From positions 1 to 35,683 of the IMG/VR virus record IMGVR_UViG_3300017786_000048: 35,683 bases of DNA; one strand, 5' to 3'. Position 1 is the first letter of the stretch; every line of letters starts with the position of its first letter. Below are positions 12,201 through 35,683 of the stretch, piece after piece. Source of the stretch: a virus. The position numbers were made by a program, and so were the translations under genes. Under the pieces are notes generated by a model. It did not search any database. It was not told the DNA's origin and saw only the letters and a list, made by a program, of their open reading frames with translations.

Positions 12201-15200
12201 ATGGCAGTTAAAACTAAACATACATTCCCAGCAGCTAATGGCAGTACAAATGCCTTTAGTTCGCATGGGATCGAACTGAATAACTTAGATGATCTTGATG
12301 TATATGTAACATTGTCAGGTGGGACTAGAGTATTAATGTCACGCTCAGCGTCAGACACTACTTCAACTAGCTCTCACCCACAATATAACGATACAACTGG
12401 ATTATATTTCCCTCCCGTAGCGGTGGGGACACAACTTTATAACTATCAATTATCCACAGCCAATGACACCATTACGTTTAACCAGAATATACCTAATTTA
12501 GGGGTAGTTTCTGTTGAACGTAGGACCAGAGATGGCTCTGGGGAATACACTACCTTTGCTGGAGGTAGTACTCTTAGGCATACTGATTTAAACTCAGCAA
12601 ATAAGGAGTCAAATTTTACAGCACAAGAGGCTAGAAACAAAGCTTTTGATCTAGAGAATAAAATATTTGGAGGTCCAGCTACTTCTACATCATTTATATC
12701 AAGTGATGAGATTGTAGATGGAACGATTGTCAATGCAGACATAAACGCAAGTGCAGCGATTGAAGGTAGCAAGCTACAAGCTTCGACTGGAAGTAATGCA
12801 GGTAGCATGTCGGCTGCTGACAAGAGTAAACTAGATGCTATTGAAGCTAACGCTACAGGAGATCAGACAAACGCAGAGATCAGGGCAGCTGTAGAAGCTG
12901 CTACAGATTCCAATGTCTTTACTGATGCTGACCATAGTAAACTAAATGCTATGGATGCTGGGGCAACTGATGATCAAACAGCTGCAGAGATAAGGGTATT
13001 AGTAGAATCTGCTACTGATTCTAATGTATTTACTGATGCTGATCATAGCAAACTAAACGCTATAGAAGCTAATGCTACTGCTGATCAAACTGCTGCTGAG
13101 ATTAGAACATTAGTAGAAAGTGCTGGTGATAGCAATGTCTTTACAGATGCTGATCATTCTAAGCTTAATGCTATTGAAGCTTCAGCTACTGCAGACCAGA
13201 CAGCAAGTGAAATTAAAACACTATTACAGTCTGACAAGTTAACCGCTAGTGAGATAACAACTGGTGCATTAGATGGTAGATACTATACAGAAACAGAAGT
13301 AGATGCAAACTTCTACAAATTAGGAAGTGTTGCTGAAATACAATCAGGTGAATCCTGGTCTGCAGCAGATAATAAAATTGCCACTACAGCAGCTATAGAT
13401 GCTCGTATAACAGATCTAGTAGATGATGTAGGTGGTTTCGTGCCCATAGCTAATGAAACATCTTTTCCTAACGCTAACCCTGACGTTAATAACGGGGCTG
13501 GAACTCTTGTATCTATTAAGGCTCTCGCTAGTAACCTCACCTCAAATGGATCAGGAGTGGCTACGATTGCTAACGGTACTGTCGGTAACTCAACCGTCAC
13601 CATTACTGGTTTAGCTAATAGCACAACATATGCTGCTACCTTTGGAATGATCGTAGAAACAACTACGACATTAAATACTTATACATTCCATAGACAAGTT
13701 CCAAAAGCTACTGAAGTAACTACGGTTGCTGGAAATGTTTCTAATGTTAATGCCGTAGCTGGAAATGTTTCTAACATTAATGCTGTAGCTAATAATTCGA
13801 CAAATATCAATGCTGTAGCTGGAAATGCTTCTAATATTAATGCTGTAGCTGGAAATGCTTCTAATATTAACAATGTTGTTGCTGCTACTGCTAGTATTAA
13901 CACAGCGGTAAGTAATGCGACAAATATAAATACCGTTGCAGGATCTATTTCAAATGTAAATAATGTCGGCGGTTCTATTTCAAATGTAAATAATGTTAGT
14001 TCAAATATCTCTGATGTTAATAACTTTGCTGATCTATATCAGATATCAACATCAGCACCGACTACAGATGGAGGAGGTAACTCTTTAGCAGCAGGTGATC
14101 TTTGGTTTGATTCGTCTTCTAACAAGGAGATGAGAGTACATGATGGGACTACCTTTAAAGTTGTTACTCCTAGTCAATCAGTCTTAACTGATATTTCGAC
14201 TGTCTCAGGAAATATCACCTATTCAGAAGATCTTGGGTTAATTACTGGAGCACTTACAACAGGAACAGGGAATAGTCTTGAAGTTTGTGCAGATAATATA
14301 GCAAAGATACAAGCATTAGGTACTACAGCTGCAGTGGCAGATATGGCTTTACTAGCCACGACAGACTGTATAGCAGACATCAACACTTTAGGTACAGCAG
14401 ATGTTGTTGCTGACTTGAATACTTTGGGTACAGCTGACGTTGTTAGTGACATGAACACGCTTGCAACGACAAGTAATGTCAATAATATGAATACTGTAGC
14501 TGGTATGACCAGTAATGTAAATACAGTAGCTGGTGTTTCATCTAATGTGACTACTGTTGCAGGTATTTCTGGTAATGTCACAAGTGTTGCGGGTATTTCA
14601 TCTGAAGTTACTGCTGTAGCTGGTAAAGTGGCAGAGGTTGGGAGATTAGGTACAGCTGATGCTGTGGCTGATTTGAACACTCTAGGTACAACAGATGTTG
14701 TAAATGACATGAATACGCTGGCTACAACCAGTAATGTCAATAATATGAACACTGTTGCTGGTATTTCCAGTAATGTGTCAACGGTGGCGGGAGTCTCAAG
14801 TAATGTAACTACAGTTGCAGGTGTAGCTTCAAATGTAACTTCAGTATCTAATATAGCTTCTAATGTGACTACAGTTGCAGGAATAGCTTCTAATGTTACT
14901 ACTGTAGCAAACGATGCAGCAGATATAGGTGCAGTGGCTGGTAAAGCAACAGAAATAGGTAGACTTGGTACTGCTGATGCTGTAGCTGATATGAATACTT
15001 TAGGTACTACAGCGATAGTATCTGACATGGATACACTAGCTGACATATCAGGCAACATTACAACTGTAGCTGGTATAGCATCTAACGTCACTTCTGTAGC
15101 TGGTAATGCAAGTAATATAAATAGTGCTGTATCTAATGCCTCAAACATTAACGCAGCAGCTTCAAATGCATCAAATATCAATTCAGCTGTATCTAATGCA

Positions 15201-23274: not shown

Positions 23275-23847
23275 ATGGGATGGAAAAAAGAAAAGCCTGT
23301 ACCCCCTCTTCCACCAGTACCCACAAACATGGGTTACAATGTAGACTATGAGGAGTTAGACAAGTTTCTAATAGATAAAGAAAAGTTCAGTCCAGATGCT
23401 TATCAAGTAAAGTCAACAAAAAAAGACGGTACTACTCATTTAGGTCAATGGACTATTGGGTATGGTAATGAGTTTTATGAAGATGGCTCAAGGGTTAGAA
23501 AAGGAGACACAATTAATGAAGCTAAGGCACATAAATTAATGAGGTTTGCTGTTAATCAAGGAATAGAGCAGTTAGAAAAAGAACCTACTTACCAGAAGAT
23601 GAATATAAACCAGAAAACTGGAATGGCATCTTTTGCTTATAACCTTGGTCCTTATTTTATGGAATCCGTTGATTATCCTAATCTACAGAAAGCTGTGAGG
23701 AGTGGTGATGTAAATGATATACATAGAATGATGCGTAAATTCGTTTACTCAGATGGTCAGTACATGGAAGGTCTTAGGATCAGACGTGAGGATGAAATAA
23801 ATCTAATGAATACGCCACTTAGTTCTGACGATAGTAGGTATGATTAA
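23275..23847 (+). CDS. Endolysin, GH24 lysozyme (T4/P22 type)
   Basis: The 190-residue protein carries the lysozyme core DKEKFSPDAY ... QWTIGYGNEFYEDG (about residues 34-72), where E36 and T60 match the catalytic Glu and Thr of T4-type lysozymes, followed by the downstream helical text NINQKTGMASFAYNLG. It cleaves peptidoglycan glycan strands. T7 uses an amidase instead (gp3.5), so this differs from the type phage. There is no signal peptide; release would need a holin, likely the gene at 20976. The N-terminus is Pro-rich (PVPPLPPVPTN). The gap before the start has a hairpin, and the stop overlaps the large terminase start. Confidence 0.88.
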   Translation: MGWKKEKPVPPLPPVPTNMGYNVDYEELDKFLIDKEKFSPDAYQVKSTKKDGTTHLGQWTIGYGNEFYEDGSRVRKGDTINEAKAHKLMRFAVNQGIEQLEKEPTYQKMNINQKTGMASFAYNLGPYFMESVDYPNLQKAVRSGDVNDIHRMMRKFVYSDGQYMEGLRIRREDEINLMNTPLSSDDSRYD

Positions 23848-25598
23848 TGCCTAGAAAGAAAAAAGAAGAGCCTTTAGCGGTGCAGCTGCAAAAAGATTTC
23901 CGTCTATTCCTAACGGGTATATGGACACACTTAGCTCTACCTGCACCTACTAGAGCACAGCTCTGTATAGCAGAATATTTACAACATGGACCCAAGAGAC
24001 TCCAAATTCAAGCTTTTCGAGGTGTTGGTAAATCTTGGATTACTGCAGCTTTTGTTCTTTGGACGTTATATAACGATACAAATAAGAAGATCATGGTTGT
24101 ATCGGCTTCTAAGGATAGAGCAGATTCATTCTCAATCTTCTGCCAAAGATTAATTTTGGAAGTCCCCTGGATGTCACACCTCAAACCTAAGAATGATGAC
24201 CAGAGATGGTCCAGAGTTAGCTTTGATGTGGGTCCAGCTGCACCTCACCAAGCACCTAGCGTTAAATCAGTTGGTATTACAGGACAATTAACTGGATCTC
24301 GTGCCGATTTAATGGTATTAGACGATGTAGAGGTGCCTAATAACAGTATGACCGAACTACAACGTGAAAAACTTCTTCAACTTGTTACTGAGTGCGAGTC
24401 TATTCTTACTCCTAAACCTGATTCTCGTATCATGTTCCTTGGAACTCCTCAGACTACTTTCACCGTCTATAACAAACTCAGGGAACGAGCTTATAAACCT
24501 TTTGTATGGCCAGCTAGATACCCTCGAAAGGTGGCTATGTATGATGGTTTACTCGCACCACAACTAGAACAAGACTTAGAAAATGAAAAAGATCTCACTT
24601 GGAATCCAACGGATACAAGATTTAAGGAGGACGATCTGCTGGAACGTGAATCTGCTATGGGTCGTAGCAACTTTATGTTACAGTTTATGTTGGACACTTC
24701 TCTCTCTGATGCAGAAAAGTTTCCTCTTAAATTTGCCGATCTCATCATTAATCCAGTCAACCCCGAAACAGCCCCAGAAAACATTATCTGGTGCTCAAGT
24801 AAAGACAACATAGTTAAAGACTTACCTTGTGTAGGGCTTCCTGGTGATTATTATTACAGCCCTATGCAGGTTCAAGGAGAATGGCAACCATATAGTGAAA
24901 CTATCTGCAGCGTAGACCCCTCTGGAAGGGGGTCAGATGAGACTGTAGCGTGTTATATCTCCCAGTTGAATGGGATAATGTATTTACATGAAATCTACGC
25001 CTCTACAGACGGTTATTCAGACAGTACTTTATTAGCCATACTTGCTAGATGTAATAAATATAAAGCATCAACCTTATTAATAGAATCTAACTTTGGTGAT
25101 GGCATGATATCCGAGTTATTTAGAAAACATGCCATTAACAAACACGTACCAATTAACATAGAGGAAACAAGAGCTAATGTCAGGAAAGAAGATCGTATTA
25201 TTGACAGCCTCGAGCCTGTTTTTAATCAGCACAGGTTGGTTATTGATCCCAGAGTTATTAAATGGGATTATGATTCGGGGTCTGAAAGACCAACTGAAAC
25301 TAGATTCCAATATATGCTTGGATACCAAATCTCAAGAATGTGTAGGGAAAAAGGGGCCGTTAAACACGACGACAGGATCGATGCCCTTGCCCAAGGTGTC
25401 AAATGGTTTACTGATGCCCTCTCCATCTCAGCTGATTCCGTAAAACTAGATAGACAAAAACAAGAGTGGCAAGACCACCTTCAAGCTTGGATGGATGACC
25501 CTCAATCTGAAGCTAATTACCTAGCAATGGGGATGGATTTTAAACAAAGACAACAAGCTAGAGGCACAGCTAAAAACGGTGTCCCTACCTGGGTTTAG
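23847..25598 (+). CDS. Terminase large subunit (gp19-like)
   Basis: A 583-residue packaging motor. The ATPase shows Walker A FRGVGKSW (57-64), Walker B LMVLDDVE with D159-D160, and the coupling region LGTPQT. The RNase H-like nuclease shows CSVDPSGRGSDET, IESNFGDGM and the late HDDRIDALAQG acidic motif. The size equals T7 gp19 (586). It drives ATP-dependent DNA packaging and cuts the concatemer at genome ends. It starts in a TAATG overlap with the endolysin. The last two bases of its stop codon are the first bases of a 26-nt exact repeat of RNA polymerase gene sequence. Confidence 0.95.
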   Translation: MPRKKKEEPLAVQLQKDFRLFLTGIWTHLALPAPTRAQLCIAEYLQHGPKRLQIQAFRGVGKSWITAAFVLWTLYNDTNKKIMVVSASKDRADSFSIFCQRLILEVPWMSHLKPKNDDQRWSRVSFDVGPAAPHQAPSVKSVGITGQLTGSRADLMVLDDVEVPNNSMTELQREKLLQLVTECESILTPKPDSRIMFLGTPQTTFTVYNKLRERAYKPFVWPARYPRKVAMYDGLLAPQLEQDLENEKDLTWNPTDTRFKEDDLLERESAMGRSNFMLQFMLDTSLSDAEKFPLKFADLIINPVNPETAPENIIWCSSKDNIVKDLPCVGLPGDYYYSPMQVQGEWQPYSETICSVDPSGRGSDETVACYISQLNGIMYLHEIYASTDGYSDSTLLAILARCNKYKASTLLIESNFGDGMISELFRKHAINKHVPINIEETRANVRKEDRIIDSLEPVFNQHRLVIDPRVIKWDYDSGSERPTETRFQYMLGYQISRMCREKGAVKHDDRIDALAQGVKWFTDALSISADSVKLDRQKQEWQDHLQAWMDDPQSEANYLAMGMDFKQRQQARGTAKNGVPTWV

Positions 25599-25720: not shown

Positions 25721-25879
25721 ATGATCCGTAAATTATTATTACTCTTACTACTATTAAGGATAATAGGTCCAGTAGGAGGTATTACATACCTATACATAAA
25801 GAACAATGTTAATGAGAGAGAAAATCCTCAAAGCCTTATTAGCCCACGCTCAAGGGGATTTACAGAAGCATCTAGCTAA
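25721..25879 (+). CDS. Small membrane protein with poly-Leu segment
   Basis: A 52-codon ORF: MIRKLLLLLLLLRIIGPVGG, then ITYLYIKNNVNEREN and a basic, Ser-rich tail. One N-terminal membrane segment is evident. It lies after the large terminase, where small lysis or membrane genes can occur in T7-like phages. The last 74 nt overlap the next gene in another frame. The frame extends upstream to a GTG at 25640, but that extension covers the hairpin and is not credible. The function is unknown; a lysis accessory role is one option. Confidence 0.5.
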   Translation: MIRKLLLLLLLLRIIGPVGGITYLYIKNNVNERENPQSLISPRSRGFTEASS

Positions 25880-26018
25880 TATAGAAGTTATTATGAATAA
25901 CCCCGTAGGAGTAGCTGATCACCCCAGTATTATTGATTCTATTGAAGCTGAACTGCATATGGCAGCTAAGTATGAAGAGCAGCTTAACCTGATTAATAAG
26001 TATCTCAAGGGGTCTTAA
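25806..26018 (+). CDS. Conserved small helical protein
   Basis: A 70-residue protein (68 if the second ATG at 25812 is used): MREKILKALLAHAQGDLQKH, then IIDSIEAELHMAAKYEEQLN and a short end. I recognise the pattern [MR]EKILKALLAHAQGD...IEVI..NP.G..[ED]HP from marine cyanophages, where it is hypothetical. It is helical with alternating charges and probably forms a helical hairpin. The consensus host promoter begins 3 nt after its stop, so it is the last gene before the late/early junction. Confidence 0.7.
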   Translation: MLMREKILKALLAHAQGDLQKHLANIEVIMNNPVGVADHPSIIDSIEAELHMAAKYEEQLNLINKYLKGS

Positions 26019-26021
26019 ATT

Positions 26022-26049
26022 TTGACATAATTTTCCGTAACCATATAAT
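26022..26049 (+). promoter_or_regulatory. Perfect-consensus sigma70 promoter
   Basis: TTGACA (26022-26027) and TATAAT (26044-26049) are separated by 16 bp. Both hexamers are exact consensus. It points rightward into the early region and is probably a host-RNAP early promoter comparable to A1-A3 of T7. The start site would fall near 26056. Confidence 0.75.
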
Positions 26050-26095
26050 CGGTCCCTCATTTTTCCAATCCCCCCAGCCCCCCTTTCGATTTTAT

Positions 26096-26404
26096 AGGTA
26101 TTTTTACTTATATTGACAAGCTCAGTATTATACCTTTTTTATGATTTGGTGTCAATAAGTATTTTTACTCATTTTTACAGGGCAGTTAAAACATCATCTC
26201 CCGAGTTTGCTGAGTATTTATACCTAACGACAACCCGTGAGGTGCCGATAGGTATTTATACGGAGCATTGCGGGGTAGACGTAGGTATTTATACGGAGCG
26301 ATACGGGGTAGACGTAAGTATAATTACCCAGGGAGAGGCCATCTGTAATTGGTATATCTATATATAACCAAAACCCCTTTTTACGTTGAGTATTTTTACT
26401 CATT
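26096..26404 (+). repeat. Cluster of GTATTTWTAC elements
   Basis: The 10-mer GTATTT[TA]TAC occurs six times on the + strand at 26098, 26159, 26214, 26252, 26285 and 26390, and once inverted (GTATAAATAC) at 26826-26835. Two copies share the longer AGTATTTTTACTCATT (26158-26173 and 26389-26404). The A-centred version has GTAT/ATAC arms, like an operator half-site pair. I saw no such cluster elsewhere in the window. Confidence 0.7.
26249..26314 (+). repeat. 33-nt tandem repeat, two copies
   Basis: Copy 1 is 26249-26281 and copy 2 is 26282-26314, 30 of 33 positions identical. Each holds TAGGTATTTATACGGAGC followed, after 4 variable bases, by CGGGGTAGACG. It could be a phage RNAP promoter pair, an operator or a packaging-site repeat. 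The 33-nt period keeps a frame open, but there is no credible start codon for a protein. Confidence 0.85.
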
Positions 26405-26494
26405 CACAGATGGTCCGATTCAATGTAGGTTTAAAAAGTACAAATGAAATTTAATTTATGGTTCAAATGAAATGTTTTGGTTTACTGACAATTA

Positions 26495-26524
26495 TTGACA
26501 CTCGATTTGATTTGAGGCAATAAT
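26495..26524 (+). promoter_or_regulatory. Second possible host promoter
   Basis: TTGACA (26495-26500) is followed after 18 bp by AATAAT (26519-26524), five of six to the -10 consensus. Its position just before the structured RNA would make it the promoter of that RNA and of the early genes. Weaker than the one at 26022. Confidence 0.45.
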
Positions 26525-26569
26525 AAAAACAGTTAAGCGAGGCTTTCAACCAACAACTAAAAACAAGTA

Positions 26570-26765
26570 CTCAGGACCTACCCTTAGAAGGTAGGAGCAG
26601 CACCAACTAGCAGTGTGCGTTACCATAAAAGCGACCCAAGGGCCACTCGAAAGGTGGAACTGCGACAGCTTCAATGGGATGAGTATGAATACCCAGGTCG
26701 GTGGGTAGTGAACATGGGTGGTGTGCAAAGACCTCAGCACTAAGTACGCATACAAAGGCGTACAA
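26570..26765 (+). ncRNA. Candidate structured RNA with kissing loops
   Basis: No known family is recognised. Visible pairings: hairpin CCTACC/GGTAGG (26577-26582/26590-26595); long helix GTGTGCGT/ACGCATAC (26613-26620/26746-26753), extendable by AC/GT around a bulged T; hairpin CCAC[T]C-GAAA-GGTGG (26643-26657) with a GNRA tetraloop; hairpin TACCCA/TGGGTA (26690-26695/26702-26707); hairpin GTGC/GCAC (26723-26726/26737-26740). The loop of the TACCCA hairpin (GGTC, 26696-26699) is complementary to the loop of the GTGC hairpin (GACC, 26730-26733), giving a kissing interaction inside the closing helix. GTACGC/GCGTAC (26744-26749/26758-26763) would compete with that helix. It may be an early-transcript leader, a regulatory RNA or a part of a larger ornate RNA. 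Confidence 0.5.
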
Positions 26766-26772
26766 TTAATTA

Positions 26773-26973
26773 ATGAGTAAATATACTTATCAATCAAATC
26801 ATCAACCGACCTTGACGATGTGTAAGTATAAATACTCAAGTGAACTATCAATAACCATAGTTCATGTGTACTATGAGGGCCAACTCTCCTCTGACTTGGG
26901 AACAAGTGAAGATGTGTACACGTGGACTATTTCATGGAGAGCAAAGCATGAAAGCCTAGCACCTATCAGGTAA
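26773..26973 (+). CDS. Possible small early protein (doubtful)
   Basis: A 66-codon ORF from ATG 26773 (MSKYTYQSNHQPTLTMCKYK, later YYEGQLSSDLGTSEDVYTW and WRAKHES). The protein could be beta-rich. Against it, no family is recognised, there is no ribosome-binding site, and the same bases form several good hairpins. It is listed because the frame is intact and sits where a first early gene would be. Confidence 0.3.
   Translation: MSKYTYQSNHQPTLTMCKYKYSSELSITIVHVYYEGQLSSDLGTSEDVYTWTISWRAKHESLAPIR
26841..26907 (+). ncRNA. Alternative hairpins and GNRA hairpin
   Basis: TGAACTAT (26841-26848) pairs perfectly with ATAGTTCA (26857-26864), 8-nt loop. The second arm can instead pair downstream as CATAGT/ACTATG (26856-26861/26870-26875), so the two hairpins exclude each other. 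A separate perfect hairpin ACTTG-GGAA-CAAGT (26894-26907) has a GNRA loop. This looks like a switch or part of the upstream structured RNA. Confidence 0.45.
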
Positions 26974-27013
26974 CTAAGATTAGGTAATGTGGGTGCAACT
27001 CCTACTCTCTCCA
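26935..27013 (+). ncRNA. Further helices before the first early gene
   Basis: TGGAGAG (26935-26941) is complementary to CTCTCCA (27007-27013). Nested inside, GCACCT (26959-26964) pairs with GGGTGC (26991-26996) with one G-U pair, and CCTA (26962-26965) can alternatively pair with TAGG (26981-26984). The stacked arrangement suggests that the structured region continues almost to the start of the next gene. Confidence 0.35.
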
Positions 27014-27023
27014 AACACACAAC

Positions 27024-27041
27024 ATATAGGTGACACTTTCC
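27024..27041 (+). promoter_or_regulatory. SP6-like phage promoter match
   Basis: ATATAGGTGACACTTTCC closely matches the SP6 RNAP promoter ATTTAGGTGACACTATAG: 14 of 18 positions, including an unbroken TAGGTGACACT. The initiation part (TTTCC in place of TATAG) does not match well. It is placed 8 nt before the ATG of the first clear early gene. Confidence 0.4.
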
Positions 27042-27049
27042 ACTAACTC

Positions 27050-27667
27050 ATGAGCTACTCTCAATTAAGTGAGAACGCTCGGCACATTGTCGCTAAGTTC
27101 GCTCTTGCTACATCATTGGAGGTAGCTCAAGGGTGTGCTTGGTACTCAGTGGCCTACGATACAGCTATCAACATGGCTGAGAAGTATGGCCTGAGTGCTG
27201 ATACATGTGCGGGTGTTATCGCTGCCCTCTCACCTAATAACAGGTGGGAGCGTAACATCATAGACGCTGAGAACATCATCAAGGCATGGAGACATGGCGA
27301 TGACGATGACGTGCTAGCTGTCAAATGCTGCACGTACCATAAGATGAAAGAGAAAGCACTCAAGATTCTTAACTCAGCGAAACCTATTGATGAAATACTG
27401 AACGGTCCCAAGATCGTTGAGTTCTACCATTGCATCACATCACATGACAATGATGTGTGTATTGATGGCCATGCCTACAGTGTATGGTTTGGAGTACGCT
27501 TAACCATGAAACAGGTGCCAAACATAGGCATCAAGCTCAGGGCTAAGATCAAGCAGGACTATCGGGATGCTACCTTGTTTATCAATGAGGAACTGAACGA
27601 GAAGTACAAAGCGAGTGACATCCAAGCTATCACATGGGTTACACACAAGAGGATCTACAATGTATAA
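27050..27667 (+). CDS. Conserved phage protein, HhH-GPD-like (DUF7178-type)
   Basis: A 205-residue protein. The pattern A-x2-I-V-x-K-F...GVIAALSPNNRWERNI...KALKIL...GPKIVEFYHCI...VCIDGHAYSVWFG matches a widespread phage family of unknown function (I believe DUF7178). The second half resembles HhH-GPD base-excision glycosylases: GPKI...F is like the hairpin region, and the D139-x-H in VCIDGHA is where endonuclease III has its catalytic VDTH Asp. Glycosylase activity is only an inference. It is the first clear gene of the early region, behind the structured RNA and an SP6-like element; its end overlaps the next start by 8 nt. The DNA here is about 50% G+C in the line I counted, against 35% in the structural genes. 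Confidence 0.75.
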   Translation: MSYSQLSENARHIVAKFALATSLEVAQGCAWYSVAYDTAINMAEKYGLSADTCAGVIAALSPNNRWERNIIDAENIIKAWRHGDDDDVLAVKCCTYHKMKEKALKILNSAKPIDEILNGPKIVEFYHCITSHDNDVCIDGHAYSVWFGVRLTMKQVPNIGIKLRAKIKQDYRDATLFINEELNEKYKASDIQAITWVTHKRIYNV

Positions 27668-27827
27668 GCAACTGACCTTCATGCCTACCTTAAATGGTAG
27701 TGTTATGACCAACAAGGCTGCTCTCCATGATCCAGCCGTACTAGCCTTTCTCACTGATCTACATGACAGAAACTACAAGGACATCAGACACCCATCAGGA
27801 CACTGGAACATCACCGACTATGACTAA
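27660..27827 (+). CDS. Small early protein, unknown
   Basis: A 55-residue protein (MYKQLTFMPTLNGSVMTNKA, ending NITDYD). The ATG overlaps the end of the previous gene by 8 nt, and its own end overlaps the next start by 8 nt, which supports it. No motif or membrane segment is seen. Small early proteins of T7-like phages often inhibit host enzymes, but nothing here shows a target. Confidence 0.5.
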   Translation: MYKQLTFMPTLNGSVMTNKAALHDPAVLAFLTDLHDRNYKDIRHPSGHWNITDYD

Positions 27828-28017
27828 CTCACAACCTATGCCTGAAGATGTATGGCAAGCCATTCTAAGACTAGAGGCTAAGCGTTTACGTCAGGGAATC
27901 ATTGAAAAGCCTGGGGTACCAGTGGATCTCATTGATGACGATGATGATTACGATGATGAACCATCTGATCAGGATATGATGAGTGCCTTCGGTACTAAAT
28001 GGCACGATGCCTTATGA
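27820..28017 (+). CDS. Small acidic early protein
   Basis: A 65-residue protein with a helical N-terminus (PEDVWQAILRLEAKRLRQGI) and a very acidic centre (DLIDDDDDYDDEPSDQD). The start at 27820 (ATGACTAAC) was chosen because it overlaps the previous stop region like its neighbours; an in-frame ATG at 27763 would overlap the previous gene by 65 nt. The acidic patch suggests a DNA-mimic or protein-binding role, without proof. It ends in an ATGA overlap with the methyltransferase-like gene. Confidence 0.55.
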   Translation: MTNSQPMPEDVWQAILRLEAKRLRQGIIEKPGVPVDLIDDDDDYDDEPSDQDMMSAFGTKWHDAL

Positions 28018-28628
28018 GTACTATGAAGGTACTGGTAGCATGTGAGAGCAGCGGCACAGTGCGTGATGCTTTCATTAAGCATGGCATTGATGCTGTTAGC
28101 TGTGACATACTACCTAGTATGACAGCGGGGCCACACATTCAAGGTGATGTGCTTGGCCTGTTAGATATGGGATGGACTCATCTCATTGCTCATCCACCTT
28201 GCACCCACATAGCAGTCAGCGGGGCTAGACACTTCGCAGCTAAGATTGCAGATGGTAGACAACAGAAGGCACTGGAATTTGTCGAGACATTATGGGACTC
28301 ACCAATCCCACACATATGTATTGAGAATCCTGTCTCTGTTATCTCAACTAAGACAAAGCTAGGTAAATGTACTCAGGTTATCCAACCTTACCAATTCGGG
28401 CATCCTGAGAGTAAGCGAACATGCTTATGGCTCAAGAATCTCCCTAAGCTGGTACCAACAGACATCTTACCTAAGCCTGAGTGTGGGTACTGGGATAATC
28501 AAACACCCAGTGGGCAGAATAAGCTCGGCCCATCTAAGGATAGATGGCAGCTACGTAGCAAAACATACCAAGGCATAGCGGAGGCTATGGTCACACGTTG
28601 GGGACTTGGTATGATTCCACCATCATAA
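28014..28628 (+). CDS. Compact C5-cytosine-methyltransferase-like protein
   Basis: A 204-residue protein with the core motifs of C5-cytosine methyltransferases: motif I-like VLVACESSGTVRDAF (SAM site), an acidic strand end at CDI, motif IV HPPCTHIAVSG with catalytic-type C63, motif VI ENP (104-106) and a motif VIII-like GHPESKRTCLWLK (129-141). Full enzymes are usually over 300 residues; here there is almost no room for a target-recognition domain, so it may need a partner, have low specificity or be a modified-nucleotide enzyme. Such small forms are common in phages. The start at 28014 (ATGA overlap) is preferred over 27999. A role in protecting phage DNA from restriction is inferred. Confidence 0.7.
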   Translation: MSTMKVLVACESSGTVRDAFIKHGIDAVSCDILPSMTAGPHIQGDVLGLLDMGWTHLIAHPPCTHIAVSGARHFAAKIADGRQQKALEFVETLWDSPIPHICIENPVSVISTKTKLGKCTQVIQPYQFGHPESKRTCLWLKNLPKLVPTDILPKPECGYWDNQTPSGQNKLGPSKDRWQLRSKTYQGIAEAMVTRWGLGMIPPS

Positions 28629-28655
28629 GCCACTATCATTCGGCTTTCACTACCT

Positions 28656-28733
28656 ATGACCAGCTTCATTGTATGGATATGTATAGTAGTATTACTGTAC
28701 ATCTTCCTTAAAAACATTCACCAAAACTATTGA
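28656..28733 (+). CDS. 25-residue membrane peptide
   Basis: The 25-codon ORF codes for MTSFIVWICIVVLLYIFLKN plus IHQNY, a single membrane helix with a short basic end. It fits the gap between the methyltransferase-like gene and the next gene (2 nt after its TGA). It is supported only by position and its clear hydrophobic character. Confidence 0.4.
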   Translation: MTSFIVWICIVVLLYIFLKNIHQNY

Positions 28734-28735
28734 TT

Positions 28736-28978
28736 ATGCAACCAGCAAGACGCACCTCTCAGTGGGTTAAGACAGTTGATGTCCTTAGCCTCATTGACGG
28801 GGTAGTACACGTTACTACTAAGACAGGCATGGAGTACATCTACCGAGGTGTATCAAGACGTGCCATCATCAACCTATGCTTAAATGACCGCATGAGCTTA
28901 GGCTTCTGGGTTAATACTAATTGTATTGCCCCTGAGCGTACATCAACTGTAAAACTAGGGAGGTTTAGCTATGTCTGA
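28736..28978 (+). CDS. Small early protein, unknown
   Basis: An 80-residue protein (MQPARRTSQWVKTVDVLSLI, ending KLGRFSYV), probably a small beta-barrel-like fold by its alternating hydrophobic pattern (GVVHVTTKTGMEYIYRGVSR). ATG 28736 was preferred over the in-frame TTG at 28730. The stop overlaps the next start by 8 nt. No motif gives a function. Confidence 0.55.
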   Translation: MQPARRTSQWVKTVDVLSLIDGVVHVTTKTGMEYIYRGVSRRAIINLCLNDRMSLGFWVNTNCIAPERTSTVKLGRFSYV

Positions 28979-29228
28979 GCCATACACAGGGTCATACACA
29001 GAGGACACACGTGTTCTCTTCTTTGACAAATCAGTTGAGCCTACCTTAATGGAGAAGTGTATCAACTATGACAAGGAGGGGGCTGAGTTATCAGTCACTA
29101 TCCCTGACAACGGTGAAACAATAGATCAAGCCTTAGCTGATCTAGGTATCACTGACCTTCGAGATAACTATCTCTACTCACACTACAACGTGGATTCTAA
29201 TGTCCCAGAAAACTTGCAGGAAGTGTGA
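28971..29228 (+). CDS. Small acidic early protein, unknown
   Basis: An 85-residue acidic protein (MSEPYTGSYTEDTRVLFFDK ... TIDQALADLGITDLRDNYLY). A good ribosome-binding sequence (AGGGAGG, about 10 nt upstream) precedes the ATG, which is rare in this genome and suggests strong, independent translation. Its end overlaps the endonuclease VII-like gene by 29 nt. The function is unknown. Confidence 0.55.
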   Translation: MSEPYTGSYTEDTRVLFFDKSVEPTLMEKCINYDKEGAELSVTIPDNGETIDQALADLGITDLRDNYLYSHYNVDSNVPENLQEV

Positions 29229-29559
29229 TACACTTAAAAACCTGGAGGATTTCCCTCTATTCTCAACAGTAGGGGCTGGTAGGAAAAACACTTGTAAGAC
29301 CTGCTCTAATCAACTCGCAACTGTTAGGGCTAGGCTACGCAAGGACAACCCACCTCCTCCTCCAGGAAATTGTCCAGCCTGTAATAGGCTGACCTCTCGG
29401 TGGGTGTTAGACCACTGCCACCACACCGACCAATTCAGGGGCTACATCTGCAACAGTTGTAACCTTGGGTTTGGTAAATTCAATGACGATCCTGATTTGA
29501 TGCACCAAGCCCTAAACTATCTGACCAAAACACCATCATCACGCACCCATCATGCTTAA
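29200..29559 (+). CDS. Recombination endonuclease VII-like protein
   Basis: A 119-residue protein with the T4 endonuclease VII (His-Me finger) signature: CPAC (58/61) and CNSC (84/87) zinc cysteines around the catalytic DHCH (71-74), then RGYICNSCNLGFGKFNDDP with N88. T4 endo VII has the same C-x2-C/DHxH/RGxxCxxCN order. An additional N-terminal pair of CxxC motifs (C6/C9 and C32/C35) gives a second zinc knuckle, common in short phage homologues. It may cut branched DNA or nick DNA. The phage also has a gp3-type endonuclease I, so resolvase capacity may be doubled. Confidence 0.85.
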   Translation: MSQKTCRKCDTLKNLEDFPLFSTVGAGRKNTCKTCSNQLATVRARLRKDNPPPPPGNCPACNRLTSRWVLDHCHHTDQFRGYICNSCNLGFGKFNDDPDLMHQALNYLTKTPSSRTHHA

Positions 29560-29830
29560 ATTCGAGACAACCCACGAGTACTACATCAAAGACCCTAGCA
29601 TGTACTACTGTGCTGAACACGATGTTCTCTGTCTATCAGAGGACTATGAGGACAGCATCCGACTCACTGGGGTCACTGAGCAAACCATTATCAAATTCGT
29701 AAGTGGACTCTTCAAACATAACGCCGAACTGGCAGCATCACTCAAGAAGGAAATTGGGTTGCAGGACATTACGCCCACAAGCCTTGCGTCAAAGCAAAGC
29801 AAGACTAAAAGCTCTACTAAGGCAGCTTAA
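29552..29830 (+). CDS. Early protein, unknown
   Basis: A 92-residue protein with an acidic, aromatic N-terminal half (THEYYIKDPSMYYCAEHDVL) and a Ser/Lys-rich tail (SKQSKTKSSTKAA). The ATG follows CCCATC and overlaps the previous gene by 8 nt; the stop overlaps the next start (TAATG). There is no recognised domain. Confidence 0.55.
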   Translation: MLKFETTHEYYIKDPSMYYCAEHDVLCLSEDYEDSIRLTGVTEQTIIKFVSGLFKHNAELAASLKKEIGLQDITPTSLASKQSKTKSSTKAA

Positions 29831-30012
29831 TGCTAGAGACAGACCTATTCACCATGCCTCAAAAGAGGATACTTAGTGCTATCAAGTATGAGTTCCTTAA
29901 GATGAACGCTGCTGAAGAGGGGATGGCACCACTCAGTGAGGAAGTTTACTCTTCCTTACCTGAGTATGAGGATCACCCTTCTGAGTACTATGACAAGCTG
30001 CTAAACGAATGA
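29830..30012 (+). CDS. Small acidic early protein
   Basis: A 60-residue protein (MLETDLFTMPQKRILSAIKY, then acidic SEEVYSSLPEYEDHPSEYYD). It begins on the A of the previous TAA and ends in an ATGA overlap, fully integrated in the coupled gene string. The function is unknown. Confidence 0.5.
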   Translation: MLETDLFTMPQKRILSAIKYEFLKMNAAEEGMAPLSEEVYSSLPEYEDHPSEYYDKLLNE

Positions 30013-30194
30013 ACACACCGCTAATAGCTTTAGCTATTGTTTACGGTTTCCTAACCCCTATAGCCATACTTAGCTATGGCTTAAGGAACAAACCTGCACC
30101 ACACAATCGTAACTGGAGGATTCTATCAGATGGCAAGACAAGACCCCTTCCCAAACAGGTGGAGGGAAGTGTACGCATGGGACGCTACGGATGA
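30009..30194 (+). CDS. Small protein with N-terminal membrane segment
   Basis: A 61-residue protein: MNTPLIALAIVYGFLTPIAI followed by LSYGLRNKPAP and a basic tail. There is one membrane helix at the N-terminus. The start is an ATGA overlap. Its last 65 nt overlap the next gene in another frame, so its C-terminus is less certain than its N-terminus. Confidence 0.45.
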   Translation: MNTPLIALAIVYGFLTPIAILSYGLRNKPAPHNRNWRILSDGKTRPLPKQVEGSVRMGRYG

Positions 30195-30432
30195 GATAAC
30201 ACAATTCAATAGCGAGATGTGTTTAGGTGCCGCTGATAACTGGAATCTACCAGAATCACACGTAGCTATTGTCCGAGCGTACCTAAAAAATGGTACGATT
30301 AAGGAACGTGCTTACAAACTTCCTGGACATGCCCATAGATGGATGAGAGCCTTGCTTAGAAACAAGGAAGACTTCACCATTATGACCTATGACCAACTAC
30401 AAGACACATTACCACAAGATGCCTTTGATTAA
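30130..30432 (+). CDS. Early protein, unknown
   Basis: A 100-residue protein (MARQDPFPNRWREVYAWDAT ... GHAHRWMRALLRNKEDFTIM). A clear ribosome-binding site (TGGAGG, about 12 nt upstream) explains a start far inside the previous gene. It contains several Trp and Arg residues and may bind nucleic acid; no family is recognised. Its end overlaps the next gene by 14 nt. Confidence 0.55.
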   Translation: MARQDPFPNRWREVYAWDATDEITQFNSEMCLGAADNWNLPESHVAIVRAYLKNGTIKERAYKLPGHAHRWMRALLRNKEDFTIMTYDQLQDTLPQDAFD

Positions 30433-30700
30433 TGTACACGACCTAGCACAATTACTTGACCGCCAAGGTTATTATATAGATGATGAGGACGGTGAGGTAG
30501 TACTCAACTATGATCCAGATGAATCTAATGTTGATAACCTACTCATTGTACTCGCAGCTGTTGGAGCCTTGCAAGTAAAGAATAAGACACTTGAGAATGA
30601 ACTTGGTTTCTATCTCCCACACTGGAAATGCTACAACAATATGGAATCATATTGTGAAGACTTTCCTAACTACCCCGCATGTAAAACCTATGACCTATGA
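30419..30700 (+). CDS. Early protein, unknown
   Basis: A 93-residue acidic protein (MPLINVHDLAQLLDRQGYYI ... ENELGFYLPHWKCYNNMESY). ATG 30419 is preferred to 30389 because it gives the short overlap normal here. Three Cys near the C-terminus do not form a clear metal site. Its stop overlaps an ATG at 30690 that begins the possible N-terminus of RNA polymerase. Confidence 0.5.
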   Translation: MPLINVHDLAQLLDRQGYYIDDEDGEVVLNYDPDESNVDNLLIVLAAVGALQVKNKTLENELGFYLPHWKCYNNMESYCEDFPNYPACKTYDL

Positions 30701-30783
30701 CCTAACACAACAACAGATTGAAGCTCTAGATGAGCACGATTACACAATGCTTTTGGCTTATGGCGACACCCTCACAGATCAAC
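30690..30783 (+). other. Probable original N-terminus of RNA polymerase, other frame
   Basis: The ATG at 30690 opens a frame running to 30962. Its first 30 residues (MTYDLTQQQIEALDEHDYTM, LLAYGDTLTD) resemble the beginning of T7 RNAP (IELAAIPFNTLADHYGERLAREQ). At GATCAAC (30777-30783) a +1 shift that skips C30783 joins this text to QQFLLEQEAISCG of the polymerase frame, matching T7 EQLALEHESYEMG. The ATG also makes the usual 11-nt overlap with the previous gene. This may be a real frameshift, a programmed one, or an assembly error. Confidence 0.55.
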
Positions 30784-33114
30784 CAACAATTTCTATTGGA
30801 ACAGGAGGCGATCTCTTGTGGGAAACAGAGGCTGAAAGATTCGATAGAGAAGTTGGAGAGCAAGTCGTACAGTTCGGCAAGCGTGTACGGAGTACCATCA
30901 ATAACGGCAGCCTTACCGATTCTTATCTCTTATGTGGAGGAGCACTTCTGGAAGCTGACTAAAGGACAGGCTGGTAAATACTACAAGCCTATAGCTGATA
31001 ACATCATTGACCTAGAACCATTAGCAATCGCCACCATCATCCTGAAGATTACGTTTGATAATGTGTTCTCTACCCGTCAAGATACAGACCGTGCATTAGC
31101 TGTCATGCTTAGCATAGGTGGTGCTTTAGAGAGTGAGTGTAAGTTTAGATGGTACAAGGCTGAGAACCCAGGATTAATGAGATACATATCCGATACCTAT
31201 TTCCATGATGCCTGTGGTACCAAACAGAAAGAAGCTATAGCTAGCAAGAAGATGGGTGAGAAAGGTATCAGATGGATTCATTGGCCTGTTAAGTCAAGGT
31301 TATGTATAGGTAGATGGGGGTTGGAAGCTGTCATCAAGACAACTGAGTGGTTTACTATTGAAAGGAAAAGGTTAAGTCGGAGTAAGACTGAAAGTAAAGT
31401 AGCTCCATCTGATAAGTTCATGGCACAGAAAGAGGAACTCATTAAGAACGCTGAGTTATTTAGTGGTATCCCTTGGCCTATGTTGGTTGAACCTAATGAT
31501 TGGGTGTATAAAGATGGGGAGGTTATACACGGTGGGTACGTTACTAACCGCTTAATGAAGGGTCATGATTTAACTAGAAAGTCTAACCACCCCCTAATAC
31601 ACGGAACTGTACCGATGGCTTTTTTAAATAAGCTTCAAAAGGTAGCATACCGTGTAAACACTCATGTATTGGGTGTAGCCGAGGAGTTGAAAGAAAGAGG
31701 AATAGTACTAGGGAAATTTATTCCTATATCTTCAGCCTTTCATCCACCTAGACCTCCAGATGCTGATGAGGATAAAGAGAAAAATCACGCATGGAAGAGG
31801 GCTAAGGCCGAGGCACATAACTCTGATCGTATTAACTTTAAGAGATCAGTTAGAACTAGGACACAGTTAGAAGCTGCTCAGAAATTTAGAGATGATAAGT
31901 TTTGGATTCCGTGGAGCTTCGATTATAGGGGCCGAGCATATCCTATACCTGCATTTCTAACACCTCAAGATACTGACTTCGGTAAATCACTTTTGATTTT
32001 CGCTGATGAACAGCCTGTAGGTAAAGATGGAGGAACAGTTTCAACGTGGTTAGCCTTTCAAGTAGCTACTACCTTTGGGTTAGATAAAGCTACTATAATT
32101 GAGAGGATTCAATGGGTAGATAATAATAGAGAATTAATAACGAGGGTCGCTACAGATCCACTATCTAATCTACCCGATTGGGAGAATGTAGATGAACCGT
32201 GGCAGTTTATGGCTTCATGTCATGAATACTACCATTGTTGTATAGAGTGTGATAAGAATACCACTGGTCTAATGGTAGCCGTTGACGCCACCTGTTCAGG
32301 GCTACAGATTCTCGCTGGGCTGGCTAAAGATGCTAGTACAGCTAGTCTTGTTAATGTATGTCCTGCTGAACGACCTAGTGATGCATATAAAGCTGTTGCC
32401 ATAGAAGCTAAGAAGTATCTGCCTAAGCGGATGCACTCTTGGATGGACAGGAGAACCTGTAAGAGAACCGTCATGACTATACCCTATAATGCAACTAAAG
32501 ATTCCTCAAGGAAATACATTAGAGAAGCATTAAAGGAGAAGGGTATTACCCCTGAACCTGATGAGTTAACTCAAGTTGTCAATGCTGTCTATCAAAGTAT
32601 GGATGCTATAGTTCCTGGACCAATGCGTGTTATGCGTTGGATCAAGCAACATGTAGGAGAATACATTAAGAACGGTGCTGAAGTTGTAGAATGGGTGACA
32701 CCTAGTGGTTTTGTGGTCATTCAACAACGTGATAAGCATAAAGTTCAACGTATTGAGCTACAGTTATTAGGGAGAACTAGGGTGAATCTATCTACGGGTG
32801 AGCATCAACCTTGTCCTAAAAAACATAGGTCTAGTACTGCCCCTAATTTTATTCATTCACTGGATGCGTCCTTGCTGCACTGTTCTTTTCAACAGTTCAA
32901 TGAACCATTCACAGTCATCCATGATTCAGTTCTTACTAGAGCAGGAGACATGGGAACACTCAATAGACTTGTGCGAGAAACCTACACGGACATCTTCACG
33001 CAAGCATGTTGGCTCACAAGATTTGGTGAAACAATCCAAGCCTCCGAGCCACCGCCAATAGTAGGCACGTTAGATACTAATGTTGTCACTAATTCCACTT
33101 ACTTTTTTTGTTAA
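30730..33114 (+). CDS. Single-subunit DNA-directed RNA polymerase (T7 gp1-like)
   Basis: From ATG 30730 the frame codes for 794 residues (T7 RNAP: 883). Catalytic motifs are all present: motif A VAVDATCSGLQ with D519, motif B CKRTVMTIPYNA with K578 and Y586 (same spacing as K631/Y639 of T7), motif C VIHDS with D732, plus the promoter-recognition region after WVTPSGF and the APNFIHSLDAS motif. It transcribes middle and late phage genes. The N-terminal frame is uncertain: an upstream segment in another frame (from 30690) seems to carry the first 30 residues. ATG 30760 is another start. The first ~230 nt are richer in G+C than the rest of the gene. It contains copy 2 of the 26-nt repeat. Confidence 0.93.
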   Translation: MSTITQCFWLMATPSQINQQFLLEQEAISCGKQRLKDSIEKLESKSYSSASVYGVPSITAALPILISYVEEHFWKLTKGQAGKYYKPIADNIIDLEPLAIATIILKITFDNVFSTRQDTDRALAVMLSIGGALESECKFRWYKAENPGLMRYISDTYFHDACGTKQKEAIASKKMGEKGIRWIHWPVKSRLCIGRWGLEAVIKTTEWFTIERKRLSRSKTESKVAPSDKFMAQKEELIKNAELFSGIPWPMLVEPNDWVYKDGEVIHGGYVTNRLMKGHDLTRKSNHPLIHGTVPMAFLNKLQKVAYRVNTHVLGVAEELKERGIVLGKFIPISSAFHPPRPPDADEDKEKNHAWKRAKAEAHNSDRINFKRSVRTRTQLEAAQKFRDDKFWIPWSFDYRGRAYPIPAFLTPQDTDFGKSLLIFADEQPVGKDGGTVSTWLAFQVATTFGLDKATIIERIQWVDNNRELITRVATDPLSNLPDWENVDEPWQFMASCHEYYHCCIECDKNTTGLMVAVDATCSGLQILAGLAKDASTASLVNVCPAERPSDAYKAVAIEAKKYLPKRMHSWMDRRTCKRTVMTIPYNATKDSSRKYIREALKEKGITPEPDELTQVVNAVYQSMDAIVPGPMRVMRWIKQHVGEYIKNGAEVVEWVTPSGFVVIQQRDKHKVQRIELQLLGRTRVNLSTGEHQPCPKKHRSSTAPNFIHSLDASLLHCSFQQFNEPFTVIHDSVLTRAGDMGTLNRLVRETYTDIFTQACWLTRFGETIQASEPPPIVGTLDTNVVTNSTYFFC
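31580..31605 (+). repeat. 26-nt exact direct repeat, copy 2 (inside RNA polymerase)
   Basis: This copy encodes KSNHPLIHG in the polymerase frame and is thus the likely source; the copy at 25597-25622 is non-coding and in the same orientation. Confidence 0.95.
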
Positions 33115-33122
33115 ACACCATC

Positions 33123-33698
33123 ATGACTACACATGTCACTAAAGAACCTGTACTACTCGATGGGTTCCAAGCTGTCCTAAAACCTGGAGAGTGGGGCTAT
33201 AAGTTAGCCGCTGTCCTATCAAAGGATGTTGTCAAAGACCTAGAGGAAGAGCGTGAAAGCTGCCTCGAATGGGCTAGAGGCAAAGCAAAGAACCCTAAGA
33301 GAGTTACAGTAAAGCCTGAGCCTTGGGAAGAATTAGATAACAAGCCAGGATTTTATCAAGTACGATTCAGTTGGAAAGATGGAGATAAGTATGTACCTGT
33401 TGTCGTTGACACAGAAGGTACTGCAATAACTGACGAGAGTACCCCTATATATAGCGGTACGATGGTTAAGTTAGCTTTCTTCCAAAAGCCATACGTTCTA
33501 CCAGCAGGTGATATTGGTACATCATTGAAGTTAAAGGCAGTACAAGTTGTCAGTTTAAATACTGGGGCTGGTGTTGTTGATGACGGAGATATGACACCAG
33601 ACGAAGCTACAGCATTGTTCGGAGCCACGAAAGGATTCAAGGTATCCGCACCTAACCCTGTAGCTGCTGAAAGTACTGAAGAAGATGAAGACTTCTAA
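33123..33698 (+). CDS. ssDNA-binding protein (gp2.5-like)
   Basis: A 191-residue protein in the place of T7 gene 2.5, between RNA polymerase and endonuclease I. The central part (KPGFYQVRFSWKDGDKYVPV; DESTPIYSGTMVKLAFFQKP) is beta-rich like the OB fold of gp2.5, and the C-terminus is strongly acidic and ends with an aromatic residue (STEEDEDF), the tail that in T7 docks on polymerase and helicase and binds the DNA-binding groove. ATG 33123 is preferred over an in-frame TTG at 33108. The stop overlaps the next start (TAATG). Confidence 0.88.
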   Translation: MTTHVTKEPVLLDGFQAVLKPGEWGYKLAAVLSKDVVKDLEEERESCLEWARGKAKNPKRVTVKPEPWEELDNKPGFYQVRFSWKDGDKYVPVVVDTEGTAITDESTPIYSGTMVKLAFFQKPYVLPAGDIGTSLKLKAVQVVSLNTGAGVVDDGDMTPDEATALFGATKGFKVSAPNPVAAESTEEDEDF

Positions 33699-34048
33699 TG
33701 AGAAGCGGTCTTGAAAGAGAGGTAGCTGCTATACTAAATAGGTTAAAATTAGATTATACTTATGAAGAAGATAAGCTACCTTACGTGATTGAGCATAAAT
33801 ACATCCCTGACTTTAGGGTTGGGGATGTCTACCTAGAATGTAAGGGTTGGTTTAAGTCAACAGATAGACGTAAGATGCTAGCTGTTAAACAGTCTCATCC
33901 TGACCTTGACATTAGGTTTATCTTTCAATCACCTTATAATAAATTATCCAAACGCTCTAAAACCACTTATGCCATGTGGGCCGACAAACACGGTTTCCCT
34001 TGGTGTGCCTCCTATGCAATCCCAATTAGTTGGCTCAAATGTAAATGA
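33698..34048 (+). CDS. Endonuclease I, Holliday junction resolvase (gp3-like)
   Basis: A 116-residue protein aligning well to T7 gp3: RSGLE, Y-E-E-D-K-L-PYVI, YIPDF, YLECKG, HPDLDIRFIF, and KHGFPW...IPISWLK. The four catalytic residues correspond to E6 (T7 E20), D38 (D55), E47 (E65) and K49 (K67). It is shorter than T7 gp3 (149) because the extended N-terminus and basic C-tail are reduced. It resolves branched DNA and degrades host DNA. Its end overlaps the primase/helicase gene by 35 nt. Confidence 0.93.
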   Translation: MRSGLEREVAAILNRLKLDYTYEEDKLPYVIEHKYIPDFRVGDVYLECKGWFKSTDRRKMLAVKQSHPDLDIRFIFQSPYNKLSKRSKTTYAMWADKHGFPWCASYAIPISWLKCK

Positions 34049-35624
34049 AGAATCCGAGTTCTGCTACCACACTGCATGTTCTAACTGTGGCTCGTCCGAT
34101 GCTAATAGCGTCTACTCTGACGGTCATACTTATTGCTTCAGCTGTAATGCTAGAACGTCTGGAGAAGAAGAGCCACCATCATCACCGCAAACTACCCATA
34201 AGGCTATGATACAAGGCCAACCTGTTTCCTTAAAGAAACGGAAACTCACCGAAGAACAATGCCGTAAATATCGTGTCCACAAAGATGGAGATGTCTTACG
34301 TTTCCATTACTTCGATAAGAAGGGGCATGTAGTTGCGGCTAAAGTAAAAACAAAGGGCAAAGATTTCTATTGGGACGGTAAGAATACCGATAACCAATTC
34401 TTTGGTCAAAACTTATTCCCTAATAAGGGGTCAAGACTGACTCTATACGAAGGAGAATTAGATGCAGTATCAGGTTATGCTGCAATGCCTACGTGGCCTC
34501 ACATGTCTGTACCTAATGGTGCAGCTGGAGCTAAGAAAGACCTACAAAAAGTACTAGATTTAACACAAGGTTATGACGAGATTGTTCTTTTCTTCGATAA
34601 TGACCAAGCTGGGATTGAGGCCGCTGAAGAATGTGCGGCTCTCTTACCACCAGGCAAGGCGAAGATTGCACGACTTGAAAAGTACAAAGATGCGTCTGAA
34701 GCACTCCAAGCGGGTGATTCGGAGGCAATTAGAAGGGCTGTCTGGGACGCAAAGACGTACCGTCCTGATGGCATTGTTGATGCAAAATCGCTACTTGAAT
34801 TAGTAACACAACCAGAACCACCATGTGCTTATGACTATCCATTCAAAGGTCTTAATGAGAAACTTCACGGGATCAGGTACGGCACACTTACAACAATTAC
34901 TGCTGGCACTGGTACAGGAAAAACCTCATTCTGTCGTCAACTTGCAGCTGACCTCCTCCAAAAGGGGGAACGGGTTGGGGTCGTGGAGCTTGAAGCAAGT
35001 AATAGAAACACCGCACTTGGATTAATGTCCACAGCGGTTGGTAAACCTTTACACCTCGGAGGACAAAATGAGTCAGAACTTAAAGAAGATTTTCGTTCTA
35101 CCATTGATAATTGGCACCTTTACCTTTTTGATGGCTTCGGCTCTTTTGATCCTAGCGTGGTCTACAATAGGATTGAGTACCTTGCCAGTGGATTGGAGTG
35201 TCGTACTATATTCCTAGACCATCTTAGTATATTACTGAGTGGTCTGGAAGGTGACGAACGCAGAACCATTGATATCACTATGACCAAGCTACGATCATTA
35301 GTTGAACGTACTGGTATAGCATTGTATTTAGTATCTCACTTACGAAGAGCATCAAATGAATCAAAGTCACATGAAGAAGGTGGAAGAGTTTCCCTCTCAA
35401 GTCTCAGGGGATCTCACAGTATTGCTCAAATCAGCGATAACGTCATTGGCCTTGAGTCCGACCAACAGGGCGACACTAAACGAAGGTTTACGACTGTGCG
35501 AGTCCTTAAAAATCGCTATTCTGGCGAAGTTGGTGTAGCTACAAGACTTCTATACGATTTATCTACCTGTCAGTTTACTGAACATGAAATTGAACCCCAA
35601 TTCAACCCGACCACGGATTTTTGA
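34014..35624 (+). CDS. Primase/helicase (gp4-like)
   Basis: A 536-residue bifunctional replication protein (T7 gp4A: 566). The zinc-binding domain has C22, C25, C41, C44 (CSNCGSSDANSVYSDGH...CFSC), which in T7 reads the primase site. TOPRIM: YEGELDAVSG and FFDNDQAG. RecA-like helicase: Walker A GTGTGKTSF (298-306), then IFLDHLSILLSG as Walker B, and SLSSLRGSHSIAQISDNVIG near the end. The C-terminus ends in TTDF, as in T7 (NDTDF), the tail that binds DNA polymerase. ATG 34014 directly precedes the zinc domain; upstream in-frame codons overlap endonuclease I. Unwinds DNA and makes primers at the fork. Confidence 0.95.
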   Translation: MQSQLVGSNVNEESEFCYHTACSNCGSSDANSVYSDGHTYCFSCNARTSGEEEPPSSPQTTHKAMIQGQPVSLKKRKLTEEQCRKYRVHKDGDVLRFHYFDKKGHVVAAKVKTKGKDFYWDGKNTDNQFFGQNLFPNKGSRLTLYEGELDAVSGYAAMPTWPHMSVPNGAAGAKKDLQKVLDLTQGYDEIVLFFDNDQAGIEAAEECAALLPPGKAKIARLEKYKDASEALQAGDSEAIRRAVWDAKTYRPDGIVDAKSLLELVTQPEPPCAYDYPFKGLNEKLHGIRYGTLTTITAGTGTGKTSFCRQLAADLLQKGERVGVVELEASNRNTALGLMSTAVGKPLHLGGQNESELKEDFRSTIDNWHLYLFDGFGSFDPSVVYNRIEYLASGLECRTIFLDHLSILLSGLEGDERRTIDITMTKLRSLVERTGIALYLVSHLRRASNESKSHEEGGRVSLSSLRGSHSIAQISDNVIGLESDQQGDTKRRFTTVRVLKNRYSGEVGVATRLLYDLSTCQFTEHEIEPQFNPTTDF

Positions 35625-35683
35625 AGGAAGTGAGTATGAACACCCTTGGTACACATACTTAAAGAAACCGCAACCACCATCAT
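35584..35683 (+). CDS. Start of a further ORF (partial)
   Basis: An ATG at 35584, inside the last codons of primase/helicase, opens a frame to the end of the window: MKLNPNSTRPRIFEGSEYEH, then PWYTYLKKPQPPS. Only 33 residues are seen. Nothing identifies the product; in T7 a small gene and then DNA polymerase follow gene 4. The overlap style matches other starts here. Confidence 0.4.
   Translation, partial: MKLNPNSTRPRIFEGSEYEHPWYTYLKKPQPPS

Follow-up and report, generated by a model that had tools for sequence, protein, structure and literature searches.

In a T7-like phage infecting marine cyanobacteria, the first early gene is preceded by a structured RNA, two core helices of which, P0 and P1, covary among relatives far beyond chance. 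In addition, tRNA-like elements recur at gene boundaries in Prochlorococcus and Synechococcus podoviruses. We lean towards the explanation that this RNA is a structured leader of the early message, that host RNase P and RNase Z split it from the mRNA by cutting at tRNA-like sites, and that these sites play the role of the RNase III sites of T7.

A covarying RNA between the terminase region and the first early gene

The window, that is, the whole stretch of DNA analysed here, is the IMG/VR virus record IMGVR_UViG_3300017786_000048 of 35,683 bases. The RNA polymerase it encodes shares 66% identity with the counterpart in the Prochlorococcus podoviruses P-SSP6 and 9515-10a. Between the terminase region and the first early gene there is about 1 kb in which no convincing gene is present (Table 1). 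No frame is open across relatives over this leader region, and a protein-coding reading was rejected for this reason. Domains A and B do not match any Rfam 15 family at the gathering score, and a permissive search returned weak chance matches only; intron and riboswitch ideas also found no Rfam support. With strong covariation, no Rfam match and no conserved frame, the original prediction of a compact structured RNA of no known family at the late/early junction stands, while the layout proposed for it proved mostly wrong when relatives were compared.

Because a sigma-70-like promoter is located just upstream, domain A is probably the 5' leader of an early transcript that would start shortly after this promoter. 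In 11 of 13 loci, a promoter-like pair at a similar distance (43–48 nt from the -10 element to P0) ranks first or second, the exceptions being L171 and L174. GAGG recurs in relatives at the place matching the GCGAGG of the window, with no start codon nearby. Such a Shine-Dalgarno-like sequence near a presumed transcript start is reminiscent of ribosome-binding mRNA stabilisers.

Table 1. Positions of the leader, its helices and the neighbouring genes in the window
Feature	Position	Strand	Remarks
PHROG 38 (terminase region)	23847-25598		
PHROG 1811 (terminase region)	25806-26018		
Sigma-70-like promoter, TTGACA-18-AATAAT	26495..26524	+	11/12 consensus matches
Presumed unstructured transcript start	26531..26567	+	follows promoter, start presumed; SD-like GCGAGG at 26537-26542
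Domain A core	26568..26685	+	P0/P1 100% paired in 14 sequences; P2-P4 weaker
P0 closing helix	26568-26573/26680-26685	+	covariation
P1 hairpin, loop CUUNNAA	26577-26582/26590-26595	+	covariation
P2	26600-26603/26615-26618	+	support weaker than P0/P1
P3	26629-26632/26668-26671	+	support weaker than P0/P1
P4 (predicted GNRA hairpin)	26643-26646/26654-26657	+	support weaker than P0/P1
P5 hairpin, TACCCA/TGGGTA	26690..26707	+	kept in close relatives; none in type B relatives
P6 hairpin, loop AAAGACCTCA	26723..26740	+	4/4 pairs in L004 and L034, 3/4 in L033
P7 hairpin, GTACGC/GCGTAC (predicted competing hairpin)	26744..26763	+	6/6 pairs in L004 (T-A to C-G compensation), 6/6 in L034, 4/6 in L033
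Domain B three-way junction	26857..26930	+	every helix fully paired (9 distinct sequences); 8/27 pairs with double changes
Domain B closing helix	26857-26870/26917-26930	+	
Domain B hairpins	26875-26888 and 26894-26907	+	
tRNA-like element	26935..27013	+	one descriptor match in window, 0 in shuffled sequence; acceptor and T-stem covary
tRNA-like element, acceptor	26935-26941/27007-27013	+	
tRNA-like element, T-arm, loop TGCAACT	26989-27005	+	
First early gene, PHROG 3842, function unknown	27050..27667	+	PHROG match 2.2e-63

When annotated phages were searched with the window DNA, only chance pieces resulted, so that homologues were collected via protein neighbours and motif scans. The motif ACGGACAA..ACGTCACTG has scattered chance matches in bacterial genomes and many in viral contigs, and matches were kept only in the context of a P1 hairpin. 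In P0, the six bases after GGGA are paired with the six bases located three positions upstream of P1, about 110 to 180 nt earlier. This pairing rule holds in every relative with a P1 hairpin, and the variants include TACTCA/TGAGTA, ACTACA/TGTAGT, ACTATA/TATAGT and ACATCA/TGATGT. P0 and P1 are fully paired in 14 distinct cores with double changes in 11 of their 12 pairs, and the covariation score is 1.022, compared with at most 0.167 for slid versions (an 11-sequence version was also run). For this alignment, the strands of P0 and P1 were cut out and joined, so that the score tests only those two helices. Consistently, three homologues found through another motif after the P0 rule had been fixed each show 6/6 pairs in the same register (TCACTG/CAGTGA, ACACTG/CAGTGT and ATACTG/CAGTAT). 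The P1 stem varies freely around its constant loop.

P0 was recognised only upon comparison of diverged relatives, and it is absent from the layout originally proposed. The single-sequence fold has an energy of -58.5 kcal/mol with a z score of -0.79, and 38 of 200 shuffles fold equally well, so that its stability is not unusual. The closing helices obtained by single-sequence folding and by RNAalifold on five close relatives differ from P0 and are partly wrong. The complementary stretches named in the original prediction are present in the sequence. However, its closing helix (26613-26623/26744-26753), with 10 pairs in the window, retains 7/10 in L004, 8/10 in L034 and 6/10 in L033 without compensation, and it occupies the 3' strand of P2, a helix that is conserved and re-paired in relatives. 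A kissing loop between GGTC and GACC had also been predicted; it keeps 3/4 pairs in L004 and 4/4 in L033, its partner is absent in L034, and the carrier hairpin is missing from several relatives. The supposed GNRA hairpin is conserved as P4, but its GAAA loop is not, other loops being found in L004 and L033. The hairpin that had been proposed to compete with the closing helix is borne out in close relatives as P7.

The middle of domain A differs among relatives, which comprise type A, type B and mosaics. P5 is re-paired as TACCTA/TAGGTA in L033 (aligned by hand), and, as regards P6, type B relatives carry a covarying stem around TCTCTGCCGT. Support for P2 to P7 is moderate and partly by eye. 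Downstream of domain A, the helices of domain B together with the acceptor and T-stem of the tRNA-like element are paired in 351 of 351 cells in nine distinct sequences, with double changes in 11 pairs; slid versions of domain B and the acceptor/T-arm reach at most 49%. These helices tolerate one-sided changes to G-U.

A related leader is found at the equivalent position in the isolates 9515-10a, R27W, P-SSP10 and NATL2A-133. The 9515-10a leader contains the ACGGACAA..CGTCACTG core common to type B relatives, and a promoter-like pair, TTGCAC-17-TATTGT, lies upstream. In 9515-10a and its relatives the leader adjoins the first gene without an intervening tRNA-like element.

tRNA-like elements at gene boundaries

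The descriptor for tRNA-like elements comprised a T-stem of at least 5 bp, a T-loop-like 7-mer and an adjacent acceptor of at least 5 bp. It gave 36 distinct matches in cyanopodovirus sequences versus one in simulated sequence. Four of the 36 lie antisense to genes or inside one and were judged false positives (45624 on the + strand in 9515-10a, its homologue 27505 on the + strand in P-SSP10, 45675 in S-CBP2 and 44010 on the - strand in P-SSP7). With a stricter score applied to ten annotated isolates, 15 sense-strand matches were obtained in eight of them, and 14 of these 15 are located in gaps between annotated genes, overlapping the end of the upstream gene by at most 17 nt; the expected number is 0 to 0.1 per strand. 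The descriptor finds no such elements in T7, SP6 and SIO1, and a match in HTVC019P was set aside as it looks like an ordinary tRNA.

In a tRNA-like RNase P/Z substrate, the acceptor stem stacks on a T-arm whose 7-nt loop resembles a T-loop; descriptor counts and covariation agree with this shape. Acceptor and T-arm are separated by a middle of about 10 to 80 nt, and many elements do not have an anticodon arm. Many isolate elements are about 40–50 nt long and consist of an acceptor, then a small hairpin (loop, for example, UUAAGG), then a T-arm; AUUG often comes next. The element of the window falls below the stricter score because of its long middle (47 nt); its T-loop is non-canonical and it matches no Rfam family. 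ARAGORN calls no tRNA gene in the window and 19 related sequences. Over its full length, the mascRNA-menRNA model (RF01684) aligns with the Syn5 and L171 elements at 23.4 and 24.1 bits, below the gathering score of 42.5 bits. When coupling between D-loop and T-loop was tested, GG was present in the D-like segment of 18 of 19 TT-class versus 10 of 15 TG-class elements, a suggestive difference that is not significant (p 0.066).

In P-SSP7, Syn5, S-CBP42 and P-GSP1, elements also precede the major capsid gene. Two stand in tandem ahead of the first early gene in L174 (798-1002). A glutamine-II riboswitch (Rfam RF01704) is present near psbA/capsid genes in P-SSP7 (L178, 20522-20678) and 9515-10a (L176, 35862-35917); in P-SSP7 a tRNA-like element directly follows it, ahead of the major capsid gene.

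Proposed processing of the early message and alternative explanations

In the favoured explanation, the feature would be the 5' leader of the first, host-transcribed message of the phage. The leader would fold into the multi-helix domain A closed by P0, the three-way junction of domain B and, immediately ahead of the first gene, a tRNA-like element. Host tRNA-processing enzymes may recognise the acceptor stem and T-arm, RNase P cutting on the 5' side and RNase Z on the 3' side. Such a cut would give the coding message a defined 5' end and release the structured leader, whose 3' end the long helix of domain B would then protect; elements between later genes would direct further cuts. Putative tRNA-like cutting in cyanopodoviruses would thereby be the counterpart of RNase III sites in the T7 early transcript. 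Covariation in P0/P1, domain B and the acceptor/T-stem, the upstream promoter, the lack of a common frame and the elements in gene gaps argue for this explanation, as do the mascRNA-menRNA-like matches, the related leader that cultured phages carry in the equivalent position and the phage RNase P substrates already known. The failure of ARAGORN to call the elements, the isolates' leader without a tRNA-like element, the atypical middle and T-loop of the window element and the merely suggestive D-loop/T-loop coupling argue against it. Domain A itself most likely serves as a stable leader governing what happens to early RNA. The location immediately behind a sigma-70-like promoter agrees with the original suggestion that the RNA acts in early gene control or RNA stability, but a pRNA-like packaging role is not supported, as no Rfam family, pRNA included, matches the window.

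A bolder version, which we regard as doubtful, is that marine cyanopodoviruses punctuate their transcripts with small tRNA mimics, many of them devoid of an anticodon arm, that are cut by host RNase P/Z and replace the RNase III sites of T7, the first cut freeing a large new noncoding RNA (domains A and B) that would act independently in host takeover. Somewhat less probable still is a trans-acting noncoding RNA in which domains A and B, once freed as a stable molecule of about 400 nt, would bind a host factor early in infection (RNase E, ribosomes or host RNAs, for instance) through the conserved loops as contact points. The processing step would be common to this alternative and the favoured explanation, but the leader would have its own target. 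The constancy of the CUUNNAA loops while the stems vary freely suggests such contacts, cleavage alone would call for a much simpler structure, and P-SSP7 is known to manipulate host RNase E (PMC9692554). However, the leader of the isolates is joined directly to the first gene.

Two further alternatives appear quite improbable to us. The position directly behind the promoter of a long early operon would suit a processive antitermination RNA like HK022 put or EAR, in which domain A would bind host RNA polymerase so that terminators in the early operon are ignored. However, no Rfam match points to such an RNA, and no terminator-like site was found on the + strand from 27000 to 35683 or in 25990-27100; therefore, there is nothing obvious for it to overcome. 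To a similar degree, we doubt that the leader is a cis-acting regulator of the first gene, either a riboswitch or a translation control element. It is a 5' untranslated region and stands directly before the first gene in the isolates, but the first gene differs between 9515-10a and the window although the leader is common to both, in the window the gene follows only after 65 to 300 nt, with a tRNA-like element in this interval, and no aptamer family matches. A DNA-level element, namely a replication, terminal-repeat or pRNA-like packaging signal, would suit the location in a terminase/early-gene junction rich in palindromic repeats, but it is highly improbable because the one-sided G-U changes in domain B and the tRNA-like helices suit RNA over cruciform DNA, the orientation behind the promoter is fixed, and a phi29-type pRNA has no Rfam match in the window.

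Relation to known systems and further features of the window

The early transcript of T7 contains RNase III processing sites, for example before gene 0.3, and these sites are hairpins cut by RNase III. As in T7, structured elements lie between the promoter and the first early gene and among the early genes, in the same gene order, and their proposed role is likewise to cut the early transcript. However, the cyanophage elements have the look of partial tRNAs and are absent from T7. In mitochondria, tRNAs between the genes of a polycistronic transcript mark the cuts, which is known as tRNA punctuation (PMC8601606). The tRNA-shaped elements between phage genes would mark predicted cut points in the same manner, but mitochondria use mainly functional tRNAs, whereas the phage elements are not called as tRNAs and often do not have an anticodon arm.

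The mascRNA-menRNA family consists of RNase P/Z products. The Syn5 and L171 elements share with it an acceptor stem, a small D-like hairpin and a T-arm with a canonical loop; however, it is a mammalian nuclear RNA family, the phage elements stay at 23–24 bits, below its gathering score, and the window element is unmatched. Phage RNAs cut by RNase P are already known, namely M3 RNA and C4 antisense RNA (PMC11143913). Like these non-tRNA RNAs, the cyanophage elements are putative RNase P substrates, but M3 and C4 are single coliphage RNAs rather than a repeated set at gene boundaries, and C4 (RF01695) has no match in the window. Structured RNAs of marine cyanophages include manA, wcaG and PhotoRC-II; manA and wcaG were reported from T4-like phages, and manA occurs in potential 5' UTRs of metabolic genes (PMC2864571). 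None of the three matches the leader.

In the part of the literature covered, where absence is weak evidence, there was no description of the leader RNA or of tRNA-like elements repeated within phage operons, nor was a paper found on early-message processing in T7-like phages of Prochlorococcus or Synechococcus. Such phages are widespread in the ocean. The covarying leader and the gene-boundary elements offer a concrete answer on how their early message may be processed, testable in cultured phage-host pairs such as 9515-10a/MIT9515, P-SSP7/MED4 and Syn5/WH 8109. If confirmed, tRNA punctuation would be extended from mitochondria to phages.

Just past the terminase region, two perfect (12/12) sigma-70-like promoters converge at 26022-26049 (+) and 26127-26155 (-). 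The former sits in a stretch, TTTTRACATAATTTTCYG, that is conserved in relatives, and it may instead be a promoter for the phage polymerase. The terminase/early junction is filled with arrays of short palindromic repeats of the TAGGTATTTATACCTA and GTACAAATGTAC types (26090-26410 and 26822-26838 in the window), which are also present in the leaders of L029, L030, L033 and L036 and are possibly terminal-repeat or protein-binding sites. Elsewhere in the window, an antisense open frame of 525 codons (14219-15796, - strand) lies inside the large gene at 12201-17288.
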